Assembly (NCBI GenBank): GCA_945865565.1 | Contig: CAMBEK010000005.1 | Span: forward strand, 1 to 54,055 | Reading direction: 5' to 3' | Origin: Pseudobacteriovorax antillogorgiicola | GTDB lineage: Bacteria; Bdellovibrionota_B; Oligoflexia; Oligoflexales; RGVZ01 | Length of the DNA: 54,055 nt | In this document: one piece after another, positions 854-52,447 of the stretch | Numbering within the stretch: position 1 is the stretch's first letter | Layout: each line of letters opens with the position of its first letter | Position numbers and translations under genes: made by a program | Notes under the pieces: generated by a model | Seen by the model: the letters and a program-made list of their open reading frames with translations, nothing else | Databases searched by the model: none | What the model was told of the DNA's origin: nothing

Positions 854-1923
854 GATGACTTCTTCCGGTGAAACCAGCGCGCAGATGCAAAAAGAATAAC
901 GCACCCTTGAATGATCATCGCAAGGTCGCGGGTGACATGATCCGTCTCAAAATCAAGATCCAAAGCACCTTTGTGCAAAGCACCGAAGAGAAAAGCTGAT
1001 GCAATCACGGCCAGGGGACGTCCACCTGCCAAAAGAGCAACGGCAATACCGGTGAATCCGTAGTCCGACGAGAATCCGATCCGGTAACGGCCGGCTCCGC
1101 CCAAGATATCACCGAGACCAGCCAACCCGGCCAAGGCACCCGCAAGGGCCATGGCAATCATCATTTGCCGGCCTGTATCAATTCCCGAAAAAGTGGCCGC
1201 TACCGAATTTTCACCCGTAGCGCGCAAATGAAAACCCAAAAGAGTCCGGTCGAACACAATTGCAACAATCAAGGCCGAAAGAATCCCTGCCACAAACCAG
1301 ATGGTCACCGGAGCGCCGTCAAAGCCACCAAACGCAACTGCTTTAAAGGCTGCAGCAACAGGCCGTGTCTCGGGATTTTGAGTATCAACGCTGTGAAATT
1401 TTTCCAGGACCAACCAACTTGTGATTGCCGTGGCCAAAAAATTCAGCATGATTGATGTAACCACTTCATGGCTGCCGCGACGGGCCCGCAAATACCCAGT
1501 GATCAGTCCAGCGAGCCCGCCAATGAACGCAGCTGCGAGACCACACAGCATCATGCCAAGTGCCATGGGAGCGAAAGACGAGGACGATGCAAGTTGAGGA
1601 AACTGCGCTCCAAACCGTAACGCCAATGCTGTGGCAGCCATGCCACCCAAGACCAGCTGCCCCTCAGCGCCGATATTGAAAAGCCCGGCACGGTAAGCCA
1701 CCGCCACAGAAAGCCCACTGAAAATTAGAGGTGTTGTATAGACCAGTGTCATTCCCAAGTCATAGGGCGTCCCCACTGCGGCCAACAACATAATGCTCAT
1801 CACGTGAAAAGGATTTTCACCAGCCAGGGCTGCGGCAGACAACCCGAAAAAAAATCCCGTCAAGATCGCTGTAAGCCATGGCCAACGGAAAATAAAAGAT
1901 TTGAGGAGAAGTCCACGACTCAC
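850..1923 (-). CDS. ABC transporter permease, nucleoside/BMP type
   Basis: This is the second inner-membrane permease of the importer, 357 residues, resembling NupP/BmpC and the BPD_transp_2 family. It has about eight to ten hydrophobic segments. The segment around residues 78-90 (RAGLFNIGAEGQ) is the conserved motif of this permease class, and a cytoplasmic EAA-like loop (RARRGSHEVVTSIMLN) lies near residue 147. It starts with GTG, overlapping the ATPase gene's TGA by four bases, and ends in an ATGA overlap with the next permease. The order ATPase, permease, permease matches known nup/bmp operons. Length and motifs are normal for the family. Confidence 0.88.
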   Translation of the reverse strand: MSRGLLLKSFIFRWPWLTAILTGFFFGLSAAALAGENPFHVMSIMLLAAVGTPYDLGMTLVYTTPLIFSGLSVAVAYRAGLFNIGAEGQLVLGGMAATALALRFGAQFPQLASSSSFAPMALGMMLCGLAAAFIGGLAGLITGYLRARRGSHEVVTSIMLNFLATAITSWLVLEKFHSVDTQNPETRPVAAAFKAVAFGGFDGAPVTIWFVAGILSALIVAIVFDRTLLGFHLRATGENSVAATFSGIDTGRQMMIAMALAGALAGLAGLGDILGGAGRYRIGFSSDYGFTGIAVALLAGGRPLAVIASAFLFGALHKGALDLDFETDHVTRDLAMIIQGCVILFASARWFHRKKSS

Positions 1924-3458
1924 GATGCGCCTCCACCAGGCATCCCGCCCGTGGCACCGCCAAAGGATCCACTTTGAGCACCACTGACCATGGCCATGCC
2001 GACGGCTGGCACATCAAATCCTCCGTCTGGCCCCCTTTTGAATTCTTGCACGATTTTCCCGCGAACCATGACCATGATCCGGTCACTCAACTTGCAAAGC
2101 TCATCCATGTCGCTCGAGATCAACAAGACAGCAGCCCCGCGGTTTCGAGCAACCATGATTGTTTCGTGGATAGCCTGAGACGAACGAAAATCCACACCGC
2201 GGGTTGGATGTGCTGCCAGGACCAGTGCCGGCTCCTGTTCCATTTCCCGGGCCACGAGGAACTTTTGCTGATTTCCCCCGGACAAAAGGCGAACTGGCCC
2301 CGTCCAACCGGGAGGCAGAATGTCATATTTTGCAAAAAATTCCAGTGCCCGTAAACGCAATAAGCTCCACGGCAATACCCTTCGATATGACGACGGATTC
2401 ACCCCAGACAGCAGCAGGTTTGTCGCCGGATCTCCATCGAGCAGCAGGCCTTCACTGCGACGATCAAAGGGCAGCAGAGCAATACGCACGGCACGACGGA
2501 TTTCCCGCGCCGACAAATGCGTCAATTCCCGCCCTGACACTGAAATGCTGCCGGACTCGCTGCGCAGGCGGGGTGCGATACGTAAAATCACCTTGAACAG
2601 CCATTCCTGCCCGTTGCCCTCGACCCCTGCGATCCCCACAATTTCCCGCTCATTCACACCAAGGGACACATCGAGGGCCCCGCGGCCCGCAGGCAGGTGA
2701 TAGTCAGTCATTTTCAAAACAGGAATTGTCCCGGCTTCCATTCGTGATGTTTTGGCTTTGACCCGGGTTGTCCCCTCACCCATCATCGAACTGGCGAGTT
2801 CTTCCGCCGAAACACTGGCGGCATCATATATGCCGGTGACCCGACCTGAGCGCATCACAGCGATTCGGTCGCAGACCCGTAACACTTCATCCAATTTGTG
2901 GCTGATCAAAATAACGGCGTGCCCTGATTCACGGAGCCGGCGCAATCTCTCAAGAAACGGCTCGACTTCGACCGGGGTCAGAACTGCAGTAGGCTCATCA
3001 AGAATGATAACCCGCGCACCCTGACAAATTACTTTCAGAATTTCCAACTGCTGCTGCTGTCCGACAGACAGGTCTTCCACGCGCGCTGCGAGATCGAATT
3101 CAAACCCGAGGTCGCGCATCGCTTTCACTGCATGTGCCTTGGCCCCACGACCGGCCACCAGCTCCAGATGCTCAAGACCGGTCAGGGGCAGAGCCAAAAG
3201 AAAATGCTGATGCACCATGCCAATGCCAGCTTTTATGGATTCCTTGGGGCTGCGGAAACGTACTTCAGAACCATTGACCAGGATCGTACCGCTGTCGGGC
3301 ACAATATGCCCAAACAGCATGTTCATACATGTCGATTTACCGGCACCGTTTTCTCCGACCAAGCCCAGGATCTCTCCCGAGTCAACATGGAATGAAACAC
3401 CGTCATTAGCGGCAACGCTGGCGAAGGATTTCGTCAGGTCCCGCAACTCAATGCGCAT
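1920..3458 (-). CDS. ABC transporter ATP-binding protein, double-domain (sugar/nucleoside type)
   Basis: This cytoplasmic ATPase of about 512 residues has two fused nucleotide-binding domains, like NupO/BmpB or RbsA. The first domain has an intact Walker A (GENGAGKST, about residues 35-43), a signature-like LSVGQQQQ and Walker B VIILDEPT. The second has a degenerate Walker A (GVEGNGQEW) but a good LSGGNQQK signature, as is usual for this class where only one site is fully active. I chose the ATG directly before the ABC domain (MRIELRDLTK); a GTG 39 bases upstream would overlap the binding-protein gene. It lies 19 bases after the binding-protein stop and overlaps the permease start, so the four genes form one operon. 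Confidence 0.9.
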   Translation of the reverse strand: MRIELRDLTKSFASVAANDGVSFHVDSGEILGLVGENGAGKSTCMNMLFGHIVPDSGTILVNGSEVRFRSPKESIKAGIGMVHQHFLLALPLTGLEHLELVAGRGAKAHAVKAMRDLGFEFDLAARVEDLSVGQQQQLEILKVICQGARVIILDEPTAVLTPVEVEPFLERLRRLRESGHAVILISHKLDEVLRVCDRIAVMRSGRVTGIYDAASVSAEELASSMMGEGTTRVKAKTSRMEAGTIPVLKMTDYHLPAGRGALDVSLGVNEREIVGIAGVEGNGQEWLFKVILRIAPRLRSESGSISVSGRELTHLSAREIRRAVRIALLPFDRRSEGLLLDGDPATNLLLSGVNPSSYRRVLPWSLLRLRALEFFAKYDILPPGWTGPVRLLSGGNQQKFLVAREMEQEPALVLAAHPTRGVDFRSSQAIHETIMVARNRGAAVLLISSDMDELCKLSDRIMVMVRGKIVQEFKRGPDGGFDVPAVGMAMVSGAQSGSFGGATGGMPGGGAS

Positions 3459-38517: not shown

Positions 38518-40626
38518 ATGGAAAAAATCCCGCAAAAGCGAAGGCTGACTGACGTCGACGACAGCGTGTTCACGCTGCGACGGCGCAGCAAGTTTTCGCT
38601 TTTTATTGCGCTGATCTGTGTGCTTTTCCCGGTTCTCTTTATTGGCAGTCAGATCAAGGAACTCTTGTCGCCTGCGACTGATATTTACCGCGACCCCTCA
38701 TTTGAAAATTTGACCCGCGAAGGGATTGAATGGGACGTTTTTTACGGTGCGTCAGAAATGTGCGGAGGCATTGAATGCCATCTGACAGCCGATTATCCTG
38801 CCGCGAAGTTCACCAAACAAATGGTACTGCCCGCTAGGGAGTTCCCACTGACCGGCTATCAGCCAGGTCAAACCATATACCTTCGCACCAGGATTAAAAT
38901 CCCGGAGCGCCTTCTCAGTGAACCCAAGCCAATCGCCCTGCATTCGCTCTACGTTTGGGCAAAAAAATACGAATTTTTTGTCAACGGAGTCCAAATCGAT
39001 GAAGGCGAGGCAGAAACCCTGAACCTGACAATTCCCCGTCGCTTAATCGCCAGCGACGGGATGGCGAACCTCGCCGTCCGGATCGATCCAGGCAGTCTTC
39101 CATATCAAGGAATCGCAAACAGGAAGGATCTCTTGATTGGTGATCGCGCGGCCCTGACTGCCACAGCCTTCAAACCGCGCGAATTGAAAACCACATATTA
39201 CCTCTGGTTCCTTTTACCGCGCCTGACGTTCTGCTTCATCTTTGCGTTTCTTTACGTGTTTCTTGCGCAGAACCGGGAACTTTTCTCATTCATCCTCTAT
39301 ATCCTGGTCTCCTCTGTCGGGATCCATCTAGACTCTGGATACTCTGAATGGCTCGAGGCATGGGGCGTCAATCGTGGCATCATGGCTCCAGCAGTTCAGT
39401 CGTTCACCGACTTGTTTCTAATATTGTTCATCCATGATTTTTTCCGCATGAAAGTCCCAGGATTTTTCAAACGTTTCCGCATTGGGATATTTGTCCAGGC
39501 CAGTCTGATTGCCATCGCATGGGCAATCTTGCCAGCGAAGGCTACGGTAAATTTAACTTTTGCTTTTGCGATTCTGGCCCGGACGTTTGCCGTCGTTTAT
39601 GGGCTCTATGCCTCATGGACCACCATGGTGCTGTTGAAGAAAAACAAAAAAAGTCCTGGCCGGATCGTCACCGCCAAAATCCTGTTTACCTTCTTTGTTG
39701 TAGCTCTGGTTCCAATGTTTCTGGAAAACCGGCGCCTCCTGGCTGACGTACTCAACCTGAATCCGAGCGGATTTCCATGGACGTTTGCGTTTGATTTGAT
39801 TTTGTTCGCCGTCCTGGCATCGATCACGGCCTATGATTACGGAGTGACTGCAAACGCGAAAATGCGCGTTGAACGCGACTTGAAGGTGATGGAGGACAGG
39901 CTGGAACTTGGAAGATCTGTTCAGAACATGCTCCTTCCGACAGAACGATCTGGTACCTCTGGCGACCTTCAATACCAGTTCTACTTTGAGACCGCACAAA
40001 CGATGGCAGGTGATTGGTACTACGTCTGGCATGCCGCCGATGGCTCGACCCGGCTGTTCGTCGGAGATGTCACCGGGAAGGGTCCGCAAGCTGCGCTTGC
40101 TGTGGCTGCGATCATCAGCGCCTTAACCCGCCACCATGAAAACCAGGACACCGTTGTTTCAACAATCGAATCGCTCAACCATCATCTGTTCAAATTATTT
40201 GGCGGAAGGGTCATGTCAACCATGAGCGTAACGATCCTCGCGGAATCAGGCAATCCAGGCATGGTAACCTTAGTCAATTGTGGCACTCCAGGCTGGGTCA
40301 CGAGTGCCGCATGCCCCGCGAAAGCGCGCTACCTGCCCCTAACCTCTCAACAGCTCGGGACCCAGGAAAGTGTGCGAATGAACACCCTGACATTACGCCT
40401 AGAACCCGGTGAGTTTATCGGAACATTCACCGACGGTTGCATCGACGGCAGCCGGGCCACCAAAAAATTTATAGACCTGATTGGCACCCACAGGCCCACG
40501 GACCAAAATTTCATCTATCGGCTGATGATCGATGCTGGAAAAGAAACGGTCCAGTCAGATGACCGGACCGCGCTGGTGATTACCAACAATGTCAACCTGG
40601 CTTTTTTGCGTCGAGCGCTTCCCTGA
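38518..40626 (+). CDS. Membrane-anchored SpoIIE-type PP2C serine phosphatase
   Basis: This 702-residue inner-membrane protein has helix 1 at about 27-45 and a periplasmic beta domain at about 50-225 (jelly-roll like, as in 7TMR-DISM sensors). A seven-helix module follows at about 225-450, then a short coiled linker and a SpoIIE/RsbU phosphatase. The PP2C metal ligands are present: AGDWYY, VGDVTGKGPQ, GTFTDGCIDG and SDDRTALV. It probably dephosphorylates an STAS-type anti-anti-sigma factor in response to an external signal. No partner kinase or sigma factor is adjacent. Its end overlaps the caspase-like gene on the other strand by 35 bases. AAAAGGG lies about six bases before the ATG. Confidence 0.85.
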   Translation: MEKIPQKRRLTDVDDSVFTLRRRSKFSLFIALICVLFPVLFIGSQIKELLSPATDIYRDPSFENLTREGIEWDVFYGASEMCGGIECHLTADYPAAKFTKQMVLPAREFPLTGYQPGQTIYLRTRIKIPERLLSEPKPIALHSLYVWAKKYEFFVNGVQIDEGEAETLNLTIPRRLIASDGMANLAVRIDPGSLPYQGIANRKDLLIGDRAALTATAFKPRELKTTYYLWFLLPRLTFCFIFAFLYVFLAQNRELFSFILYILVSSVGIHLDSGYSEWLEAWGVNRGIMAPAVQSFTDLFLILFIHDFFRMKVPGFFKRFRIGIFVQASLIAIAWAILPAKATVNLTFAFAILARTFAVVYGLYASWTTMVLLKKNKKSPGRIVTAKILFTFFVVALVPMFLENRRLLADVLNLNPSGFPWTFAFDLILFAVLASITAYDYGVTANAKMRVERDLKVMEDRLELGRSVQNMLLPTERSGTSGDLQYQFYFETAQTMAGDWYYVWHAADGSTRLFVGDVTGKGPQAALAVAAIISALTRHHENQDTVVSTIESLNHHLFKLFGGRVMSTMSVTILAESGNPGMVTLVNCGTPGWVTSAACPAKARYLPLTSQQLGTQESVRMNTLTLRLEPGEFIGTFTDGCIDGSRATKKFIDLIGTHRPTDQNFIYRLMIDAGKETVQSDDRTALVITNNVNLAFLRRALP

Positions 40627-42058
40627 GGGAGTTTGAAAAGAACCTTCCGATGGGCAGCGTTCCGTAATTCACGGTCTCATACTGGAGACCTTTTCGGTCA
40701 GAGAAATAAACCGACTCGACACCGGTAGATCCATTGAATCTTTGCGCAGTGTTTAGCAGATCGTAGGTCAAGCCTTCGCCCAGATCACTGTCGCAGGATT
40801 CGAAAAAAACAAGCGGCAGTGCCACACTAAATTCCTGCAGCAAGGCAACCATGGCGGTCTTGGTTATTCCCGGGGTTTCCAGAGGGCGTGCCTCCGATGC
40901 AAGATCGTTCTTGAGGTCACCGGTCTTGAGGTCGCCGGTCTTGAGGTCGCCCACTTTAAGATCACCGACTTTGAGGTCACCGGTTTTCAGTTCACCGACC
41001 TTGAGATCACCAACCTTGAGATCCCCACTTTTCAGGTCACCGACTTTGAGATCCCCAACCTTTAAATCACCAACCTTGAGATCACCGATCTTCAAATCAC
41101 CAACCTTCAAGTCTTTCAAGAATGCTTCCGCCGAATCACCGAGCCCCAGATCACCGACCTTCAAATCGGATACCTTCAGATCACCAAACGATGCGTTTAC
41201 GGACGAGAGATCGATATCCTCCAGTCGGGTTCCTTTCAGGATCAATTCACCAATGCGAGTTCCGTTAGGCAGGACGAGATCAACAAAACGCATCTCCCTG
41301 ATGGAAACCGTCGACGCAATTTCGACGTACCTGGCCGCGAGTGCATTGTCATCGAGAAGGTCAGAGCGATAAGAGAGCTTCGGCGCAACGACGTAATCTC
41401 CACCGCCGTGCGACTTGGAAATCAGGACATAAGCAAAGTCGGAGGAAGCGATATTTTTTGCCATCAAGATGGATTTTACAGTATTCTGCATTGCCTCAAA
41501 TGCCTTTTGAGATGATAGAGGCATTTCTCCGTAACGGAAGTCCTGAAGTTCTTCCGCAGACAGGTCCACCTTGAAATCAACTTCCTCAACCTTGCCCTGA
41601 TAGTCCCCAGGCAAGCAGAAACGCACCTTGCCCAGGCGAGTTAGTTTGTTCGTGAAAATAAAAAGCCCTGTTTTACGGCCATTGATGTCCGGACGACAAA
41701 TTTGGCTTTCGAGGCCATTGGCGTCTTTTTGAACTTGAACTGCAAATCTGCTCAAGTCGTTTTGGTAGGACATCGCAATGCGAGCAAGGGTGGCTTTGCC
41801 AGTTGGAGAAGTGATGCTGCTTCGCTCTGCCGCGGCCAACGCGTTTCCAATCCGCGCGTATTGATCTGCGATGACGGGCGTGGGGGGAGTCTCGTTGGCA
41901 TAGAATATGACCATTTCGCCGTTGCCCTTGCGAACAGCCATCCCCTCGGCGCCGTCAATATCCTTAGCCTTGGAATACTGGAACTGACAGGCGCTAACGC
42001 CCGGCACTGCCATCATCACGAAAAAGGAAAACAGAACCTTGCGGATTGACAAATTCAC
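40592..42058 (-). CDS. Lipoprotein with split caspase/clostripain-like protease and GDLKx pentapeptide array
   Basis: This 488-residue exported protein has a lipobox (SAC, Cys24). A strand ending in SKSHGGGDYVV (His217) looks like the His-Gly motif of clan CD (C11/caspase-fold) peptidases. About 205 residues later the strand LPLVFFESCDSD holds Cys422 in the matching D/E-[SA]-C position. In clostripain relatives these two lie 40-50 residues apart. The insert between them carries about 13 consecutive GDLKx repeats plus degenerate copies before them, a pattern like A[DN]LXX pentapeptide repeats that fold into a beta-helix. The GTG start has AAGGGGG five bases upstream; a GTG 21 bases upstream is an alternative. 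It is the last gene of the three-gene operon. Confidence 0.65.
   Translation of the reverse strand: MNLSIRKVLFSFFVMMAVPGVSACQFQYSKAKDIDGAEGMAVRKGNGEMVIFYANETPPTPVIADQYARIGNALAAAERSSITSPTGKATLARIAMSYQNDLSRFAVQVQKDANGLESQICRPDINGRKTGLFIFTNKLTRLGKVRFCLPGDYQGKVEEVDFKVDLSAEELQDFRYGEMPLSSQKAFEAMQNTVKSILMAKNIASSDFAYVLISKSHGGGDYVVAPKLSYRSDLLDDNALAARYVEIASTVSIREMRFVDLVLPNGTRIGELILKGTRLEDIDLSSVNASFGDLKVSDLKVGDLGLGDSAEAFLKDLKVGDLKIGDLKVGDLKVGDLKVGDLKSGDLKVGDLKVGELKTGDLKVGDLKVGDLKTGDLKTGDLKNDLASEARPLETPGITKTAMVALLQEFSVALPLVFFESCDSDLGEGLTYDLLNTAQRFNGSTGVESVYFSDRKGLQYETVNYGTLPIGRFFSNSLREALDAKKPG
40907..41101 (-). repeat. 15-base tandem array encoding GDLKx pentapeptides
   Basis: Thirteen contiguous 15-base units encode GDLK[IVST/N] (one GELKT). 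The units are diverged at third positions while the protein sequence is nearly constant, so selection acts on the protein. Three degenerate copies lie just before, up to 41185. Confidence 0.9.
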
Positions 42059-42126
42059 TGTGACCCCCTTAGAAGTCACATCTCTTCGGTAATTAGTAGT
42101 TGAAACTGAAGTGTAGTGTGAATTTT

Positions 42127-42144: not shown

Positions 42145-43413
42145 TCAACGAGGATCCAAAAAGCTTGTCAGGCTGAACTCATAATATTCAAAATTGGGGC
42201 TATTTAATCCCGCAACCGGAAAACTGGCAGTCAATTTGGCTATGTACGGAATCACAAACTCTTTGCGCTGAAAGGCTTCAACCGTGTTCATGGAGAAGCC
42301 GATTTCTTGCGTGATTAATTCCGTGTCAGAATTTGCAGAGATTTTTGAATAGTTGCCTACGATACTTCCCGTATAGCGATCGCCAAAATGGCGATGGTCC
42401 GCAAATCGTAGATTGCCTTTGAACATGCCGGTTCCAAATTCCAATGCAGCACCGAGTTCATAGTCATCACCTGGATTATGAAGAACATTTGTTTTACGGT
42501 CCGCAGCGACAATGGATTCGCTATCCTCGGGGACCCGACGCTTAACCCTTGCATCCATGTTATAAGCGTACATCTGATCAAATGAAGCACTAAAGTACGG
42601 TGTGAATTGAATACGTTGCGACAGAGACTGTCCGACCGAAACATAGCCCTTTCCAAGTCCGATATCGTTTATGAGATCTGGGTCGTCGGCATGACCAGTC
42701 GGCAGTGACAGGGACGGGCTGTATTCAAATGCGATTGGCATTCCGTCCATTAGTTCAATATTGAAAGCCGTCTTGAGGCCGACTTGAAGATCACCGATTC
42801 CTGAATATTGCCACCGGTCGATCGGTCCGTACCCCTCGGATTCGATTGAATTTCGAATCGTTGCAACGTCCAGCAGACTGGCCTGCTCCAGGCCCTGGCG
42901 CAATTCGTCAAAAGCGATGTTCCCAAGTCTTTCGAGAATGGATTTGGCGTTATTTATGCCGCTAAACACGATCCTGTTTTTAACCAGGGCAGTCGTCCAG
43001 GGAGCACCGACGAAAACCGTCATGTCCTTGCTTGCGCCATAGGCAAATCCGAAAACGGAAGCCGAAATATCCGCAGATACGTGTTGCTGCAAGACTCCAA
43101 GATCAAGAGCCGTCTCGGAAGGATCGCCAACCGTTTGCAAAACAGTGGCGAGGCGCTGGAGATCCTTGCCTCCCCTGCCACTCAAGAGCATTTCGTTGTC
43201 GAAACGCATGGTGTAGTCAGCACCAATCGGACGCAGCTGAAAATTCGAATCAAACGCGTTTTCCTGGCTTTTATAAGAACGGTAACCGACCTGCCACGCA
43301 ACAATACCCTCAGGAAGAAGGCCCTGTGCAGCCGCAGTCCCGGGTAGCATCGCTGCTGAAATCGCCGCGAGCAATCCAGTGAAAATGGTTAGATTGCTGC
43401 TGCTGCGTCCCAA
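42145..43413 (-). CDS. Outer-membrane beta-barrel-like protein
   Basis: This 422-residue protein has a signal peptide ending GTAAAQ. The mature part is rich in alternating polar/hydrophobic strands with Tyr/Phe girdles, and the last residue region (EYYEFSLTSFLDPR) ends near an aromatic residue as in barrels. Motifs such as YSPSLSLPTGHADD, IGLGKGYVSVG and DDYELGAALEFGTG recall the 'MetA-pathway' transporter/OMP superfamily. It starts at TTG with AGGA eight bases upstream and its first codons overlap the preceding lipoprotein gene by 25 bases, so the two are coupled. The transported substrate, if any, is unknown. Confidence 0.65.
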   Translation of the reverse strand: MGRSSSNLTIFTGLLAAISAAMLPGTAAAQGLLPEGIVAWQVGYRSYKSQENAFDSNFQLRPIGADYTMRFDNEMLLSGRGGKDLQRLATVLQTVGDPSETALDLGVLQQHVSADISASVFGFAYGASKDMTVFVGAPWTTALVKNRIVFSGINNAKSILERLGNIAFDELRQGLEQASLLDVATIRNSIESEGYGPIDRWQYSGIGDLQVGLKTAFNIELMDGMPIAFEYSPSLSLPTGHADDPDLINDIGLGKGYVSVGQSLSQRIQFTPYFSASFDQMYAYNMDARVKRRVPEDSESIVAADRKTNVLHNPGDDYELGAALEFGTGMFKGNLRFADHRHFGDRYTGSIVGNYSKISANSDTELITQEIGFSMNTVEAFQRKEFVIPYIAKLTASFPVAGLNSPNFEYYEFSLTSFLDPR

Positions 43414-45197
43414 GCGTTAATTCCTGCGTCAATGGTTTGAATCAAGGCGGCAATTTCCGATTCGTTGACGCTATAACTCTTCAGGCGGAAAAGAGCCTCA
43501 CGGCACCAGATCGCTTCTTCCGGCGAGAGATCCAGTTGGGAGTTCGCGTTCAGCTTTTCAGAAAGATTATTAATCAATTTTTGGCCCAGAGATGCAATCC
43601 GACGACGGACAAATCCACTACGCATCATCTGCTGTTCGACTCTGGCAAGGGTGGCAATCAACTCTGCCTGCCTGGCCACGGGCAATGCCGTGACTCCGGA
43701 TTCAAATGCCTGCCAATCAGAACTTCTGCGAAGTGAGCGCAACACACTCAGACGAAGGGCATCCTGCAGTTTTGGGAGTGCATCACGGACGATCGTCTTG
43801 TCCGACTCGGAAAGGCCTGAGGAATCAATCGATTGAATTTCTTGGGTCCATGCCGTCAGCACGTTGGCCACGCGAACCATGCTGATCAAATTCGTTTCAC
43901 TGCGCTCTACCCTTTGTTCTGGAATCGAATAAGAATCACCAATGGTCATCGTATCAAGTGCTACCATTTCTTCGCCCAGAAGGACCTGCATCCCCTGCAA
44001 AAACGCCAACCCGAGGCGTTGCGAGTCCGCGGGAAAAAGATTTGAATCGCCAGATCCGAATAATGCAGCGGGATATTTCCGGGATTCGGCCCTTAAACTT
44101 TTGAAGATCGCGGCCCCAGCGCGCCAAACCCGGACTTGCTCAGACAAATCAATTGAGCCGGGCTGTCGTTGCCATTGCTCTTTACCGTTAACAATCAATT
44201 TTAGTGAGGACATTGGCTGATACGCAATTTTGAGTCGACCCGACATCCCAAGAAGTGGCGCCCCAGTTGCCGGAAGCATCTCAAAACCGAGAAGATTTCC
44301 CGAAGGATCGCGGGGATTCAACATGAGGCCACCGTATATGCGTCCGTCAAAGCCGCGTTTGACACCAAGGACATAATTAATCTCTGCCATCATCCGCGCC
44401 CAACTAACTAGTTGGATGTCTTGCTCCAGAGGCAGGTTTTTACGGCTGCGACCCGGCCCGGTTGTCCAAGGTGCTGGAGCGCTTGCAACAAGGAGCCAGC
44501 GGGACGCGATACTTCCGACATCAAAACCATCAGGACGCACAGAGTTTCCGGTGGACCGGGCTGGAATTTGCCACGGAAGGGGAGCAAATCCGTCAAAATA
44601 AAGTTTCTGCGATGACCCAATTTTCAACGGATTTTGCCATGCGTTCTGAATCAGGGCCAACAGATTGGAGTGGACCGTGCTTTCAAGTTGGGAGTCACTC
44701 GCAAAAATCCTGGAAATCATCCCGTCAGCACCACCAGGCAGCTGTAGAACGGCCTGAATCCGTTTGTCTTTGAGGATAGCCTCACGAACTTGTGGAACGA
44801 GTACCTGCGGAAGTGAACCGTAAGTTTCAAGGGTTCTTGTCAGGACCCTGTGCGACCAGCGAGGAGCACATTCGCAATCCGAAACAGCCCACAGCAGTTC
44901 ATCGTAATCCATGGCCTGAAATCGTTCGCGAACCGCGGAGCCTTTAAGGATATCAACGCCACTGAAAGTAACGCGGATTGAATCGTTTTCAAGAGGCAAC
45001 GTGGCATCCTGAGCGATTCCCTGCCCATTGGATTCCAAGGATCCATTCTCATAAAGTTTCGGTAGATCGCTACTCGACCGGGGCGTGTCCTGTGCACCGT
45101 CCTCGGAACCCATAAAATTTCCAGGAAAAATCCACTGGCAACCCGACAAGGTCTGAGCGATCAGTAGAACGGCAACGATTTTAAATATTCGACGCAT
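43389..45197 (-). CDS. Large lipoprotein, unknown function (first gene of the surface operon)
   Basis: This protein of about 602 residues has an N-terminal lipid site (TLSGC, Cys20) and should be in the outer membrane or exposed at the surface. No known domain is recognised. The first 150 mature residues are charged, with DCECAPRW holding a Cys pair; the central part has beta-rich Gly segments (FDGRIYGGLMLNPRD) and the last 200 residues look alpha-helical. I chose the ATG (MRRIFK); a TTG three codons upstream has a better-spaced GGAGG. It overlaps the beta-barrel gene by 25 bases and is divergent from the Pro-rich lipoprotein. Confidence 0.65.
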   Translation of the reverse strand: MRRIFKIVAVLLIAQTLSGCQWIFPGNFMGSEDGAQDTPRSSSDLPKLYENGSLESNGQGIAQDATLPLENDSIRVTFSGVDILKGSAVRERFQAMDYDELLWAVSDCECAPRWSHRVLTRTLETYGSLPQVLVPQVREAILKDKRIQAVLQLPGGADGMISRIFASDSQLESTVHSNLLALIQNAWQNPLKIGSSQKLYFDGFAPLPWQIPARSTGNSVRPDGFDVGSIASRWLLVASAPAPWTTGPGRSRKNLPLEQDIQLVSWARMMAEINYVLGVKRGFDGRIYGGLMLNPRDPSGNLLGFEMLPATGAPLLGMSGRLKIAYQPMSSLKLIVNGKEQWQRQPGSIDLSEQVRVWRAGAAIFKSLRAESRKYPAALFGSGDSNLFPADSQRLGLAFLQGMQVLLGEEMVALDTMTIGDSYSIPEQRVERSETNLISMVRVANVLTAWTQEIQSIDSSGLSESDKTIVRDALPKLQDALRLSVLRSLRRSSDWQAFESGVTALPVARQAELIATLARVEQQMMRSGFVRRRIASLGQKLINNLSEKLNANSQLDLSPEEAIWCREALFRLKSYSVNESEIAALIQTIDAGINAWDAAAAI

Positions 45198-45274
45198 GGA
45201 TATCAACAACATGCCTCCAACACGGACGATGAGCAATTCGCACACCAAGCGTAACCCATTGTAATGCTGAAGGC

Positions 45275-45324: not shown

Positions 45325-45442
45325 CTTTATCAAGCGCCCAAGACTGATCTGCCCTTTTCTCGACGAGAGATTCGGGACTTGCATCGCCAAAGCCTTGGTG
45401 GCTCGGGACTTGCAGAGTTTCCAGCAAACCCGGAGGAAAAAA

Positions 45443-46237
45443 ATGAAACGTATACAGGCCATCAGCATGTCGACACCGAAGATCAAGTTGCCCATGCAGG
45501 CACTCGCCGCACTGGCCCTGCTCTCGATCAACATCGGGTGCGTTTCAAAGGCTCCGAGCGTCGATGTCGCGCCGGGGTCACAGCGGAACCCCAACGCCAC
45601 AGGGACGATCCCAGGCAATGGATTTGATCAGACCATGGACACGGGCTCACTGAGCGCCGTACTCGATGAACGGATGCTAAAAGATCAGTTCAATATAAAC
45701 ACCGCAAACCTGAACTACAAATTTAGTTACCTCGGCAAGTCCGAATCAGGGGCCATTCGTTTTAGCTCCGGAAAATCACGAGTGAGCCTCTCCAAACTGA
45801 AATCGGGTCAGTCTGGAACCGTCTCTCTGGAAATTTCTGAAGGAGCTACGTTGCGCCTTAAAGGTGAACAAACCAACGTAACCCTGCGCCCGGGGCAAAA
45901 TGAGATGTCCCTGAACCTTCGTAGCGTTAGCCCCCCGACCCCACCGCCAGGTACGAATCCGGGAACAGGTCCAGGAACAAACCCAGGGACGAATCCAGGC
46001 ATAATTAACAACGGGATCACCCCGCCACAGGACACAAGCTTGTCGATCAATGTGACGATGGATGGAGCGACCCCGCCGCCAGCGCAGCCTAACGTTCAGC
46101 CTAACGTTCAACCTAACGCGCAGCCCAACGTTCAGCCAAATATCCAGCCGAACGTGACGCCACAGACACAACCTCAGGCGTGGAATGGAGTCGGTGACCG
46201 CGGTAATGAAAATTGGAGCATTGAGTCAATAGAGTAA
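45443..46237 (+). CDS. Proline/glycine-repeat lipoprotein
   Basis: This 264-residue exported protein has a hydrophobic stretch ending in NIGC (Cys33, an imperfect lipobox). A compact domain of about 100 residues (LNYKFSYLGKSESGAIRFSSGKSRVSL... LRPGQNEMSLNL) is probably a beta sandwich. It is followed by a flexible tail of GTNPGTGPG and QPNV repeats that ends in an acidic WSIESIE motif. GGAGG lies seven bases before the ATG. It diverges from the surface operon across the paired inverted repeats and ends in a strong terminator. The tail suggests an extended, surface-exposed anchor or adhesin-like stalk. Confidence 0.65.
   Translation: MKRIQAISMSTPKIKLPMQALAALALLSINIGCVSKAPSVDVAPGSQRNPNATGTIPGNGFDQTMDTGSLSAVLDERMLKDQFNINTANLNYKFSYLGKSESGAIRFSSGKSRVSLSKLKSGQSGTVSLEISEGATLRLKGEQTNVTLRPGQNEMSLNLRSVSPPTPPPGTNPGTGPGTNPGTNPGIINNGITPPQDTSLSINVTMDGATPPPAQPNVQPNVQPNAQPNVQPNIQPNVTPQTQPQAWNGVGDRGNENWSIESIE
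46085..46156 (+). repeat. 12-base tandem repeat encoding QPNV
   Basis: Six 12-base units encode QPNV, QPNV, QPNA, QPNV, QPNI and QPNV in the tail of the Pro-rich lipoprotein. The first two units are identical at the DNA level; the others diverge mostly at silent or conservative positions. Confidence 0.9.
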
Positions 46238-46264: not shown

Positions 46265-46292
46265 GGGACCCAATATGGGTCCCTTTTTTTTT
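46265..46292 (+). terminator. Strong Rho-independent terminator
   Basis: A perfect seven-base stem GGGACCC/GGGTCCC with loop AATAT and nine following T (with an A-run before it) lies 27 bases after the Pro-rich lipoprotein stop. Confidence 0.92.
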
Positions 46293-46418
46293 GCCCAACC
46301 CCGTAACAGATGAGCCGATTCCAGATTTATTATGTAAGGGCCAAAACCATACCAACCTCACACCCCCGCGTTCTTTGTCGATGGACAATCAGAACAGCCC
46401 TCAGACACGGGAGACCTT

Positions 46419-47393
46419 ATGGTCGCGCAGGCTCAAACGATGCAAAGAAGTCGGAACGCCGAAGAAACGATTATTTCACCTCAGGTTTTCGAAAGCCTTA
46501 GGCTACTTCGAAAACAAATGGAACTTCTTGTCCCCGAAAAACCACTGGTGTCATCGGTTTCCCTTTGCGCGATTCTGGCACAGGCTCACGTCTTGCTCGA
46601 AGACGTCCCCGGAATTGGCAAAACAACCTTCATCAAATCCATCGCAAAAATGTTGGGACTGGACTTCAAGCGCGTTCAGTTCACCAATGACGTTCTACCG
46701 AGCGATGTGATTGGGGTTGAAGTTTACAACCAGGAGAAACATAAATTTGAATTCCACAGGGGACCGATCTTCACCCATATTGTCCTGGCCGATGAACTGA
46801 ACAGGGCATCACCACGCACCCAATCGGCTCTTCTCGAAGCGATGGGAGAAGGATCCGTTACCACCGAGGGTAAGTCACAGATGCTGCCCCGCCCCTTCAT
46901 TGTCTTTGCCACACAGAACCCAAACGAAAGCATTGGAACCTATCCACTGCCAGAAAGCCAATTGGATCGATTCGCAGCCAAAATCAGGCTGGATTATCCA
47001 TCCAAGGCCAAAGAAATAGAAATTCTGAGGGTTGCCACCCTTGATCCACTGTCGACAGTTCCAGAAAAACTACTCGCCATGGAAGACCTCTTTAAAACAC
47101 AAGCAGCCCTAAACGGAGTTTTCGTTGCGGATCGCGTCTTATCCGTCGCTAAGCGTGTTATTGACGCATCCAGGCATGCTGAAAGCATCAAGCTCGGAAT
47201 ATCAACACGAGGCGGAGTCTCATGGATCCGGATGGCAAAGGCCAGGGCATTACTCGAAGGCCGAGACTACGTGATCCCCGACGATCTCATTCATCTTGCG
47301 ATCTCATGCCTTGCCCACAGGATTATCCCACGCGCAGGTCTTGATAACTCCGAGGCCATTAAAAACATTCTTGCGCAGGTGGAAGTCGATTGA
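46419..47393 (+). CDS. MoxR-family AAA+ ATPase
   Basis: This 324-residue cytoplasmic AAA+ ATPase has Walker A DVPGIGKTT (about 62-70), Walker B IVLADELNRA and sensor 1 FATQNPNESIGTYPLPESQLDRF, the classic MoxR signature. The usual role is a chaperone for assembly or activation of partner proteins, often together with DUF58 and transglutaminase partners, as here. GGGAG lies five bases before the ATG. It is followed by the DUF58 gene within 31 bases. Confidence 0.93.
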   Translation: MVAQAQTMQRSRNAEETIISPQVFESLRLLRKQMELLVPEKPLVSSVSLCAILAQAHVLLEDVPGIGKTTFIKSIAKMLGLDFKRVQFTNDVLPSDVIGVEVYNQEKHKFEFHRGPIFTHIVLADELNRASPRTQSALLEAMGEGSVTTEGKSQMLPRPFIVFATQNPNESIGTYPLPESQLDRFAAKIRLDYPSKAKEIEILRVATLDPLSTVPEKLLAMEDLFKTQAALNGVFVADRVLSVAKRVIDASRHAESIKLGISTRGGVSWIRMAKARALLEGRDYVIPDDLIHLAISCLAHRIIPRAGLDNSEAIKNILAQVEVD

Positions 47394-47424
47394 TGCCGTC
47401 CAGGCAGGACCGGAGCATAGAACG

Positions 47425-48506
47425 ATGTATTATAAATCCGTAAACAGGGGACTGTCCCTGACCACACCCGGTGTCTATGCCTTGGTGTTGGTCTTTGTGT
47501 CTGGACTAATCGCAGTAAACACGGGAACAAACGCGCTATTTCTCTTCCTGGCCTGCGGATTGAGCTTAATCCTCATCTCCGGAATTCTGTCGGAATCCGC
47601 GATAAAAAACTACGAAATCGACGGATATTTGCAGCATACTGCTGAAACAGGAAAACCATTTGAATTACTCATCATCGTCAAGAACCAGCATCGATACGCA
47701 CCAATTTACGGATTCGAAAATTACGCCGTAAAGAAGATCCCAAACTCGCTTATTCTGCCGGCCAAGCCAAAAGAGACCTACGGGCACGGTAACGTCCTGA
47801 GCCTTCCTGCAAAGGCATCAAAGACCATCGGAATGCAAATGGAGTCGATGGAGAGAGGTCAATACAGCTCCATCAAGTTTCTTCTTCGAACAAACTTTCC
47901 TTTTGGACTCATCGACAAATTCAAGATAACCGAAGCCAAGGGCTTCCTCATCGTCCTCCCAAAAATAATCCCTGATCTCTATGAAAATTTAAAACGAGAT
48001 TATCGGCGCCGCGTTGCCAACAGGGACGATGAACGAGAGTTTTTCTCTCACCGCCCCCACTCGACACAGGATTCAACCCGCCACGTCGATTGGAAAAAGA
48101 GTGCAGGGAAACCCACCAGACACTGGGTACAAAAGGAATACCGTTCCGAAGTTGCTGAGTTTGGGATTCTGTTACGGACGAACTGGAGCATCATGCTCCG
48201 GACATCGACCGCTGAAACATACGAACACATGATCAGTGTGCTGAGAACCGCCGCAGAGGTGGTAAAAGAGGCGTCGCGTGAGCTGGTCTTACTGCATCAG
48301 GACGGGACATACACGGTTGGTTACGACGCAATCAGTCAGCATCTGGCTTCGATACCTCAGTTTGACGAGAAAAACACCAAGTGGCGACACCCCGAATCCA
48401 AGTCCGAACTGAAGGGCATTTTCCTTGAGCTTGAATTGTCTGCTGATGGATATGAATGGGGTGAATACATCAGCCCTGCATCCATCATGCCCACAGGAAG
48501 CGCGAC

Positions 48507-48510
<4 letters not shown>
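47425..48510 (+). CDS. DUF58 domain protein
   Basis: This 361-residue membrane-associated protein has two N-terminal helices (about 12-55), then a cytoplasmic region with the DUF58 motif STQDSTRHVDWKKSAGKPTRHWVQKE (the DxxRxxxWxxSA core). I chose the ATG preceded by GGAG at nine bases; an earlier frame overlaps the MoxR end and is not needed. DUF58 proteins work with MoxR ATPases and are linked to envelope or secreted protein complexes. The following transglutaminase gene starts in its last codons (ATGA). Confidence 0.88.

Positions 48511-52447
<3,937 letters not shown>

Follow-up and report, generated by a model that had tools for sequence, protein, structure and literature searches.

What kind of protein carries a candidate catalytic His and a candidate catalytic Cys on either side of a long tandem repeat array, and what might it do in the cell envelope? 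The question is raised by one gene in the window, i.e. the whole stretch of DNA analysed here (54,055 nucleotides; positions 1-54,055, forward strand, of contig CAMBEK010000005.1, assembly GCA_945865565.1, Pseudobacteriovorax antillogorgiicola, Oligoflexales). In the initial annotation its product was described as a lipoprotein with the motif SKSHGGG, the motif FFESCDSD about 205 residues further on and at least 13 GDLKx repeats in between, and each of these points was confirmed. A signal peptide and a lipobox are present, the spacing between His217 and Cys422 is exactly 205 residues, and between the two lie 15 [GS][DE]LKx units, of which 13 form an unbroken run; the array DNA was picked up as a tandem repeat by TRF, which together with the ORF comparison and the pS and pN values given below rules out chance. 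Residues of the window protein are numbered by the 488-aa form, while an alternative upstream GTG start at 42079 would give 495 aa. The locus comprises:

38518..40626 (+): partner protein with one TM helix, a periplasmic domain, about seven TM helices and a SpoIIE/PP2C phosphatase domain; tail-to-tail with the lipoprotein gene, 35-base overlap
40592..42058 (-): gene of the clan-CD-like lipoprotein, 488 aa (ORF call and orthologues)
40793..40795 (-): putative catalytic Cys422 (FFESCDSD), invariant in alignments A1 and A4; in the model at the C-terminal end of strand 391-398
40799..40801 (-): Glu420, at Cys-2, where PmC11 and clostripain have their S1 Asp (A4; PMC4850288)
40907..41185 (-): GDLKx repeat region, residues 292-384 (TRF and unit counts); the 13 contiguous units occupy 40907-41101
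41408..41410 (-): putative catalytic His217 (SKSHGGG), invariant in A1 and A4; in the model at the C-terminal end of strand 185-193 (mature-protein numbering)
41987..41989 (-): predicted lipidated Cys24, lipobox VSAC (fully conserved as column 1 of alignment A2)
41990..42058 (-): signal peptide, residues 1-23, NLSIRKVLFSFFVMMAVPGVSA-C (every relative has a lipobox)
42145..43413 (-): outer-membrane beta-barrel-like protein with a weak Phenol_MetA_deg match, beside the family gene only in the window's genus
43389..45248 (-): lipoprotein of unknown family, beside the family gene only in the window's genus
45395..46237 (+): lipoprotein with PGTN and QPNV repeats; its orthologues in L036 and L038 retain the protein but differ in the repeats
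46291..50717 (+): consecutive genes for a putative MoxR-type ATPase, a DUF58-like protein and a transglutaminase-like membrane protein (names given from the sequence)

The window protein ends 66 residues past Cys422, and a C-terminal domain of the C11 type is absent. The predicted location of the family proteins is the outer membrane, to which they would be lipid-anchored.

Orthologues of the window protein were found in all four genomes of its genus (identity 91% to 65%) and more distant relatives, with 24-32% identity, in the same family and order; the named matches are Oligoflexales MAGs. Altogether 13 genomes of the order contain a relative, 12 identified by sequence and one (G017) by synteny. 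KSHG and ESCxS[DE] are invariant in the nine members found first. The four further genomes were reached via the neighbouring SpoIIE gene: the G035 member is matched by the original family profile, that of G007 is linked through similarity to the G035 member, and that of G013 is matched by a profile including both, while membership of G017 rests only on synteny, the lipoprotein signal and the motifs NGHGG and LNSC. Alignment A4 has only ten invariant columns, among them those of the putative catalytic His and Cys. The residue at Cys-2 is Glu in nine of the ten A4 rows and Asp in the other (Asn in the synteny-only member G017), and a Lys two residues before the His is invariant; His-Gly is replaced by His-Ala in the G007 member. 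The relatives keep both residues and differ in their repeats. No relatives were found among viral contigs or among plasmids, and a scan of genome contigs with one motif pattern returned the same close relatives only; the searches beyond the order were narrow. One genome carries a family paralogue as well (G011 contig 5, L088, 2698-3549 (+)); the contig ends inside its identical IKGGDD units, and no SpoIIE gene adjoins it on the contig sequence examined.

AlphaFold2 models of the window protein and of a relative whose repeats are LDKDG were built, each from an alignment of nine natural sequences. The window protein reached a mean pLDDT of 64, with a confident core and values of 25-36 in the array, and the LDKDG relative a mean of 72, with about 25-32 in the array. 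In both models the putative catalytic His and Cys each end a core strand, and C11 peptidases were the best structural matches of both (VIA comparison; Z 12.8/12.7/12.4 for the window model and 13.0/12.7/12.0/11.6 for the relative), including iotapain (6n9j; Z 12.8, rmsd 3.6, 199 residues) and clostripain (9cip; Z 12.7 and 13.0). Caspases ranked after C11 with Z 8-9, legumain was matched by the model of the LDKDG relative only (Z 10.3), and unrelated proteins in the same comparison scored about 7-8. Foldseek also ranked C11 first, at a level that was not significant (no E below 0.007). The caspase/clostripain-like fold originally proposed, with the array between His and Cys, is upheld by the models, and a clan CD caspase-like fold with an alpha/beta/alpha core and a conserved His/Cys dyad is supported for the family.

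Profile searches against C11, C14 and C25, the peptidase families to which the initial annotation had pointed, left the window gene unplaced, and neither Pfam nor NCBIfam holds a peptidase profile that matches its product. The C11 profile (PF03415) matches neither the window protein nor anything else in the window's genome, the C25 profile (PF01364) has no match in this genome, and the only match of the C14 profile (PF00656) lies on another contig (C3). By hhalign, KSHG was aligned on DHGGG of local C11 sequences (probability 4%, E 0.01), and ESC fell on a DxC of C14 (E 0.034); C25 (E 0.45) and SpoIIE (E 0.47) served as comparison figures. This register with C11 and C14 is weak and suggestive, short of proof. 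In terms of sequence the family is outside C11, despite the C11-like fold of its models. We infer that its members are active peptidases. A basic P1 residue, as in C11, is at most possible for the family: the invariant Lys close to the His could offset the charge of the Glu at Cys-2, and the arrays of four members contain no Lys.

A tandem array occupies the same site between His and Cys in 13 of 13 genomes. We count eight motifs that are unrelated to each other; their periods are 4, 5, 6, 7 or 9 residues:

GDLKV, period 5: the window's genus
LDKDG, period 5: G004, G005, G006 and G009
LKG[QE], period 4: G011
IKGGDD, period 6: G011 paralogue, at the contig end
GLNADI[PV], period 7: G035
DGLTIA, period 6: G013
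TQGVDGTSS, period 9: G007
SG[ED]SG[ND]T, period 7: G017

In the 165 distinct ORFs of 200 aa or more from the loci compared, strong protein tandem repeats were detected in just two families, the present one and one other lipoprotein family, by a filter that missed the G017 array. The units of the window array differ from each other with pS 0.75 and pN 0.14. Over the 13 arrays compared, pS ranged from 0.37 to 0.95 (ten arrays at 0.57-0.95, three short arrays at 0.37-0.40) and pN from 0.02 to 0.29; identical DNA units were seen only in the array of the G011 paralogue. Since silent divergence is near saturation and the protein is conserved in most arrays, the units of these arrays are old and selected and not the product of recent slippage. 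The place of the array, its presence in every relative found, the exchange of its motif and the selection on its units are thus established at the level of sequence comparison. The retention of an array at one site at which at least eight motifs occur is unusual, even without a mechanism.

The initial annotation had interpreted the array as a rigid pentapeptide beta-helix. As a general explanation this did not hold, in view of the other periods and of the array pLDDT of about 25-36. Periods of 4, 5, 6, 7 and 9 residues at one site do not allow a single quadrilateral helix for all members, and the motifs and periods of the relatives rule out such a helix as a family-wide feature; A(D/N)LXX units are not conserved across the family and are confined to the window's genus. 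A beta-helix is possible for the GDLKV array of the window protein: there are weak, below-cut-off matches to pentapeptide proteins, and AlphaFold2 gives an EHHH pattern (pLDDT 45-59) at mature residues 230-275, before the array.

A linker cleaved at Lys was attractive because the C11 loop is cut at Lys and Glu is found at Cys-2 here. Units of the window's genus, of the G004-type relatives and of G011 have one Lys and no Arg each, as counted with a pattern that requires Lys and so cannot by itself show that Lys is conserved. The array units of G007, G013, G017 and G035 have no Lys, and these rule out a Lys-specific self-cleaving linker as a general rule. Within the Lys-bearing groups, Lys-specific self-cleavage is possible.

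The second constant element of the locus, the pairing with a SpoIIE phosphatase, was absent from the initial annotation. A gene for a SpoIIE-type 7TM phosphatase adjoins the family gene in 13 of 13 genomes, convergently (tail-to-tail) in seven of them and on the same strand with the phosphatase upstream in six. The nine genomes in which the protease was found first, and no others, have full-length orthologues of the window phosphatase (E below 1e-100). Eleven of the 13 partner phosphatases fall into one clade (support 91/93), the other two being on long branches. No neighbour besides SpoIIE is common to different genera. Gene order and homology thus establish the pairing of the two genes, and the constant SpoIIE neighbour, together with the fold and the exchanged repeats, suggests a new kind of signalling protease.

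Further neighbours were considered as constant members of the module, namely papain, C25 and outer-membrane proteins, and were ruled out, as SpoIIE alone is common to all. In G007 (L099), a papain-type lipoprotein (1311-2579 (+); Peptidase_C1, E 5e-10) is followed by a further, second SpoIIE-7TM phosphatase of this genome (2717-4741 (+)), as if cysteine proteases were recurrent partners of such phosphatases. In G004, and in this genome only, the family gene directly adjoins that of a gingipain-like C25 peptidase of 1012 aa with a P-domain (L041, 2632-5667 (-)). In G017 (L087, 2318-2779 (+)), a small lipoprotein with GGDGDV repeats and without a protease motif adjoins a second SpoIIE relative.

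The reading that we prefer, tentatively and with a probability of about 0.4, is a module of a lipid-anchored clan CD cysteine peptidase and an inner-membrane SpoIIE sensor phosphatase, in which the array is an exchangeable, lineage-specific activation loop of a periplasmic signalling protease. The loop between the His strand and the Cys strand, which in C11 gates the active site and has to be cleaved before the enzyme is fully active, would have been replaced by a long tandem array. As long as it is uncut, the array would restrain the active site. The cut could be autocatalytic, or it could come from a different protease, with the numerous equal units as bait; the enzyme would then open and cleave a periplasmic target. 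Target cleavage would change the state of the phosphatase and thereby alter a partner-switch pathway. The motif would be exchangeable between lineages, having to match a local cutter or ligand and not a fixed fold. Cleavage of the array and signalling to the phosphatase are the steps that we infer. Several observations speak against this reading: the lack of a peptidase-family match by sequence, the Foldseek and hhalign values given above, the missing C11-type C-terminal domain, the units without Lys and the Lys near the His that could neutralise Glu at Cys-2. Besides, one cut opens a loop, so selection on every unit exceeds what the model needs.

Such selection would fit a repetitive fold or multivalent binding, and the main rival explanation regards the array as a ligand-binding or adhesive module, in some lineages a beta-helix or another solenoid, so that binding and not cutting would control or target the enzyme. 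The weak resemblance of the window array to pentapeptide proteins and the low-confidence EHHH pattern are in line with it. We nevertheless consider it unlikely: the five different periods are incompatible with one solenoid, two unrelated array types are modelled as disordered, and in a pentapeptide helix made of LDKDG units the inward-facing i-2 position would be taken by a charged Asp. Another explanation, in which the arrays bind a metal such as Ca2+ through Asp/Gly-rich units (DKDGLD, IKGGDD, GVDGTSS), fold and unite the two half-sites, draws on the Gly and the Asp, Asn or Glu present in nearly all motifs and on the activation of clostripain by Ca2+; LKGQ units without an acidic residue, the single Asp per GDLKV unit, paired with Lys, and the lack of any match to an RTX or EF-hand family make it very improbable.

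Equally small is the chance that the array is an insertion-tolerant loop filled with meaningless repeats by replication slippage. The free exchange of motifs and the identical DNA units of the G011 paralogue are what slippage would leave behind, but every one of the 13 genomes has the array, in contrast to a single other repeat family among some 150 further ORFs, and in most arrays the protein is conserved at near-saturated silent sites. Improbable, too, is a fold without peptidase function, i.e. a pseudoenzyme or a co-receptor displaying the array to the SpoIIE sensor; while the missing peptidase-family match and the His-Ala of G007 would agree with it, His and Cys are invariant in an alignment with just ten invariant columns, and Glu or Asp stands at Cys-2 in every A4 row.

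If the exchangeable activation loop is the correct reading, a protease switch would be retargeted in a modular way, with enzyme and output kept constant and the array between the catalytic residues exchanged. It would also provide a concrete candidate for envelope sensing in the little-studied Oligoflexales, and the family would allow repeat exchange at a fixed structural site to be followed. We regard as doubtful a more far-reaching claim, namely that these proteins form a new family of signalling proteases of the envelope, with an activation loop that acts as a replaceable 'bait' or 'fuse' and is exchanged as the trigger while the catalytic core and the SpoIIE reader are kept.

Compared with known systems, the family resembles the C11 peptidases (clostripain, PmC11, iotapain, globupain) in its modelled fold, in His-Gly, in the acidic residue at Cys-2 and in having an additional stretch between His and Cys. 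In C11 this stretch is a short activation loop that can be cleaved (PMC4850288, PMC11296011, PMC10315481). Full activity of PmC11 depends on cleavage at Lys147, which lies between His133 and Cys179; the S1 residue of this enzyme is predicted to be Asp177, at Cys-2, and its C-terminal domain starts at Lys250 (PMC4850288). Globupain is cut at K137 and K144, by which a 7-residue linker is lost from the His-Cys loop, and in clostripain, which is activated by Ca2+, the linker gates the pocket. The family differs from C11 by the lack of a sequence-family match, by the tandem array, by the absence of the C-terminal domain and by being a lipoprotein paired with SpoIIE; the His-Cys distance is 119-205 residues in its nine first members versus 46-55 in C11. 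The initial statement that no protein with this arrangement had been described stands in part: in the open-access papers searched we found neither a tandem-array insert of this type nor a pairing of a clan CD lipoprotein with SpoIIE, but C11 has its short cleavable loop at the same position (PMC4850288, PMC11296011).

Legumain (C13) and the caspases and metacaspases (C14) belong to the same fold class as the family. The family motif ESCxS is similar both to EACES of legumain and to DSCHS of metacaspases. The cleaved or extended loops of C14 come after the Cys, whereas the array of the family comes after the His. GDLKV loosely fits the A(D/N)LXX consensus of pentapeptide-repeat proteins (HetL, Alr5209, Qnr types), but unlike these the family includes relatives with periods of 4, 6, 7 and 9. 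True pentapeptide repeats (A[NI]LxG) occur at the C-terminus of a large protein of G031 (L010/L012), which was matched through its repeats alone and is unrelated to the family; a cation-efflux-like protein of G048 (L011, 906-2090 (+)) carries a long His-rich array of (G[ED]HHH) units. Metacaspases of cyanobacteria that have pentapeptide domains do combine a caspase fold and pentapeptide repeats in one protein; there the repeats form a separate domain, in one architecture between NACHT and WD40, whereas the array of the family lies inside the catalytic core (PMC3501461). The likeness to partner-switching phosphatases of the RsbU/SpoIIE type lies in the adjacent gene, whose product combines a periplasmic domain, about seven TM helices and, following them, the SpoIIE domain.
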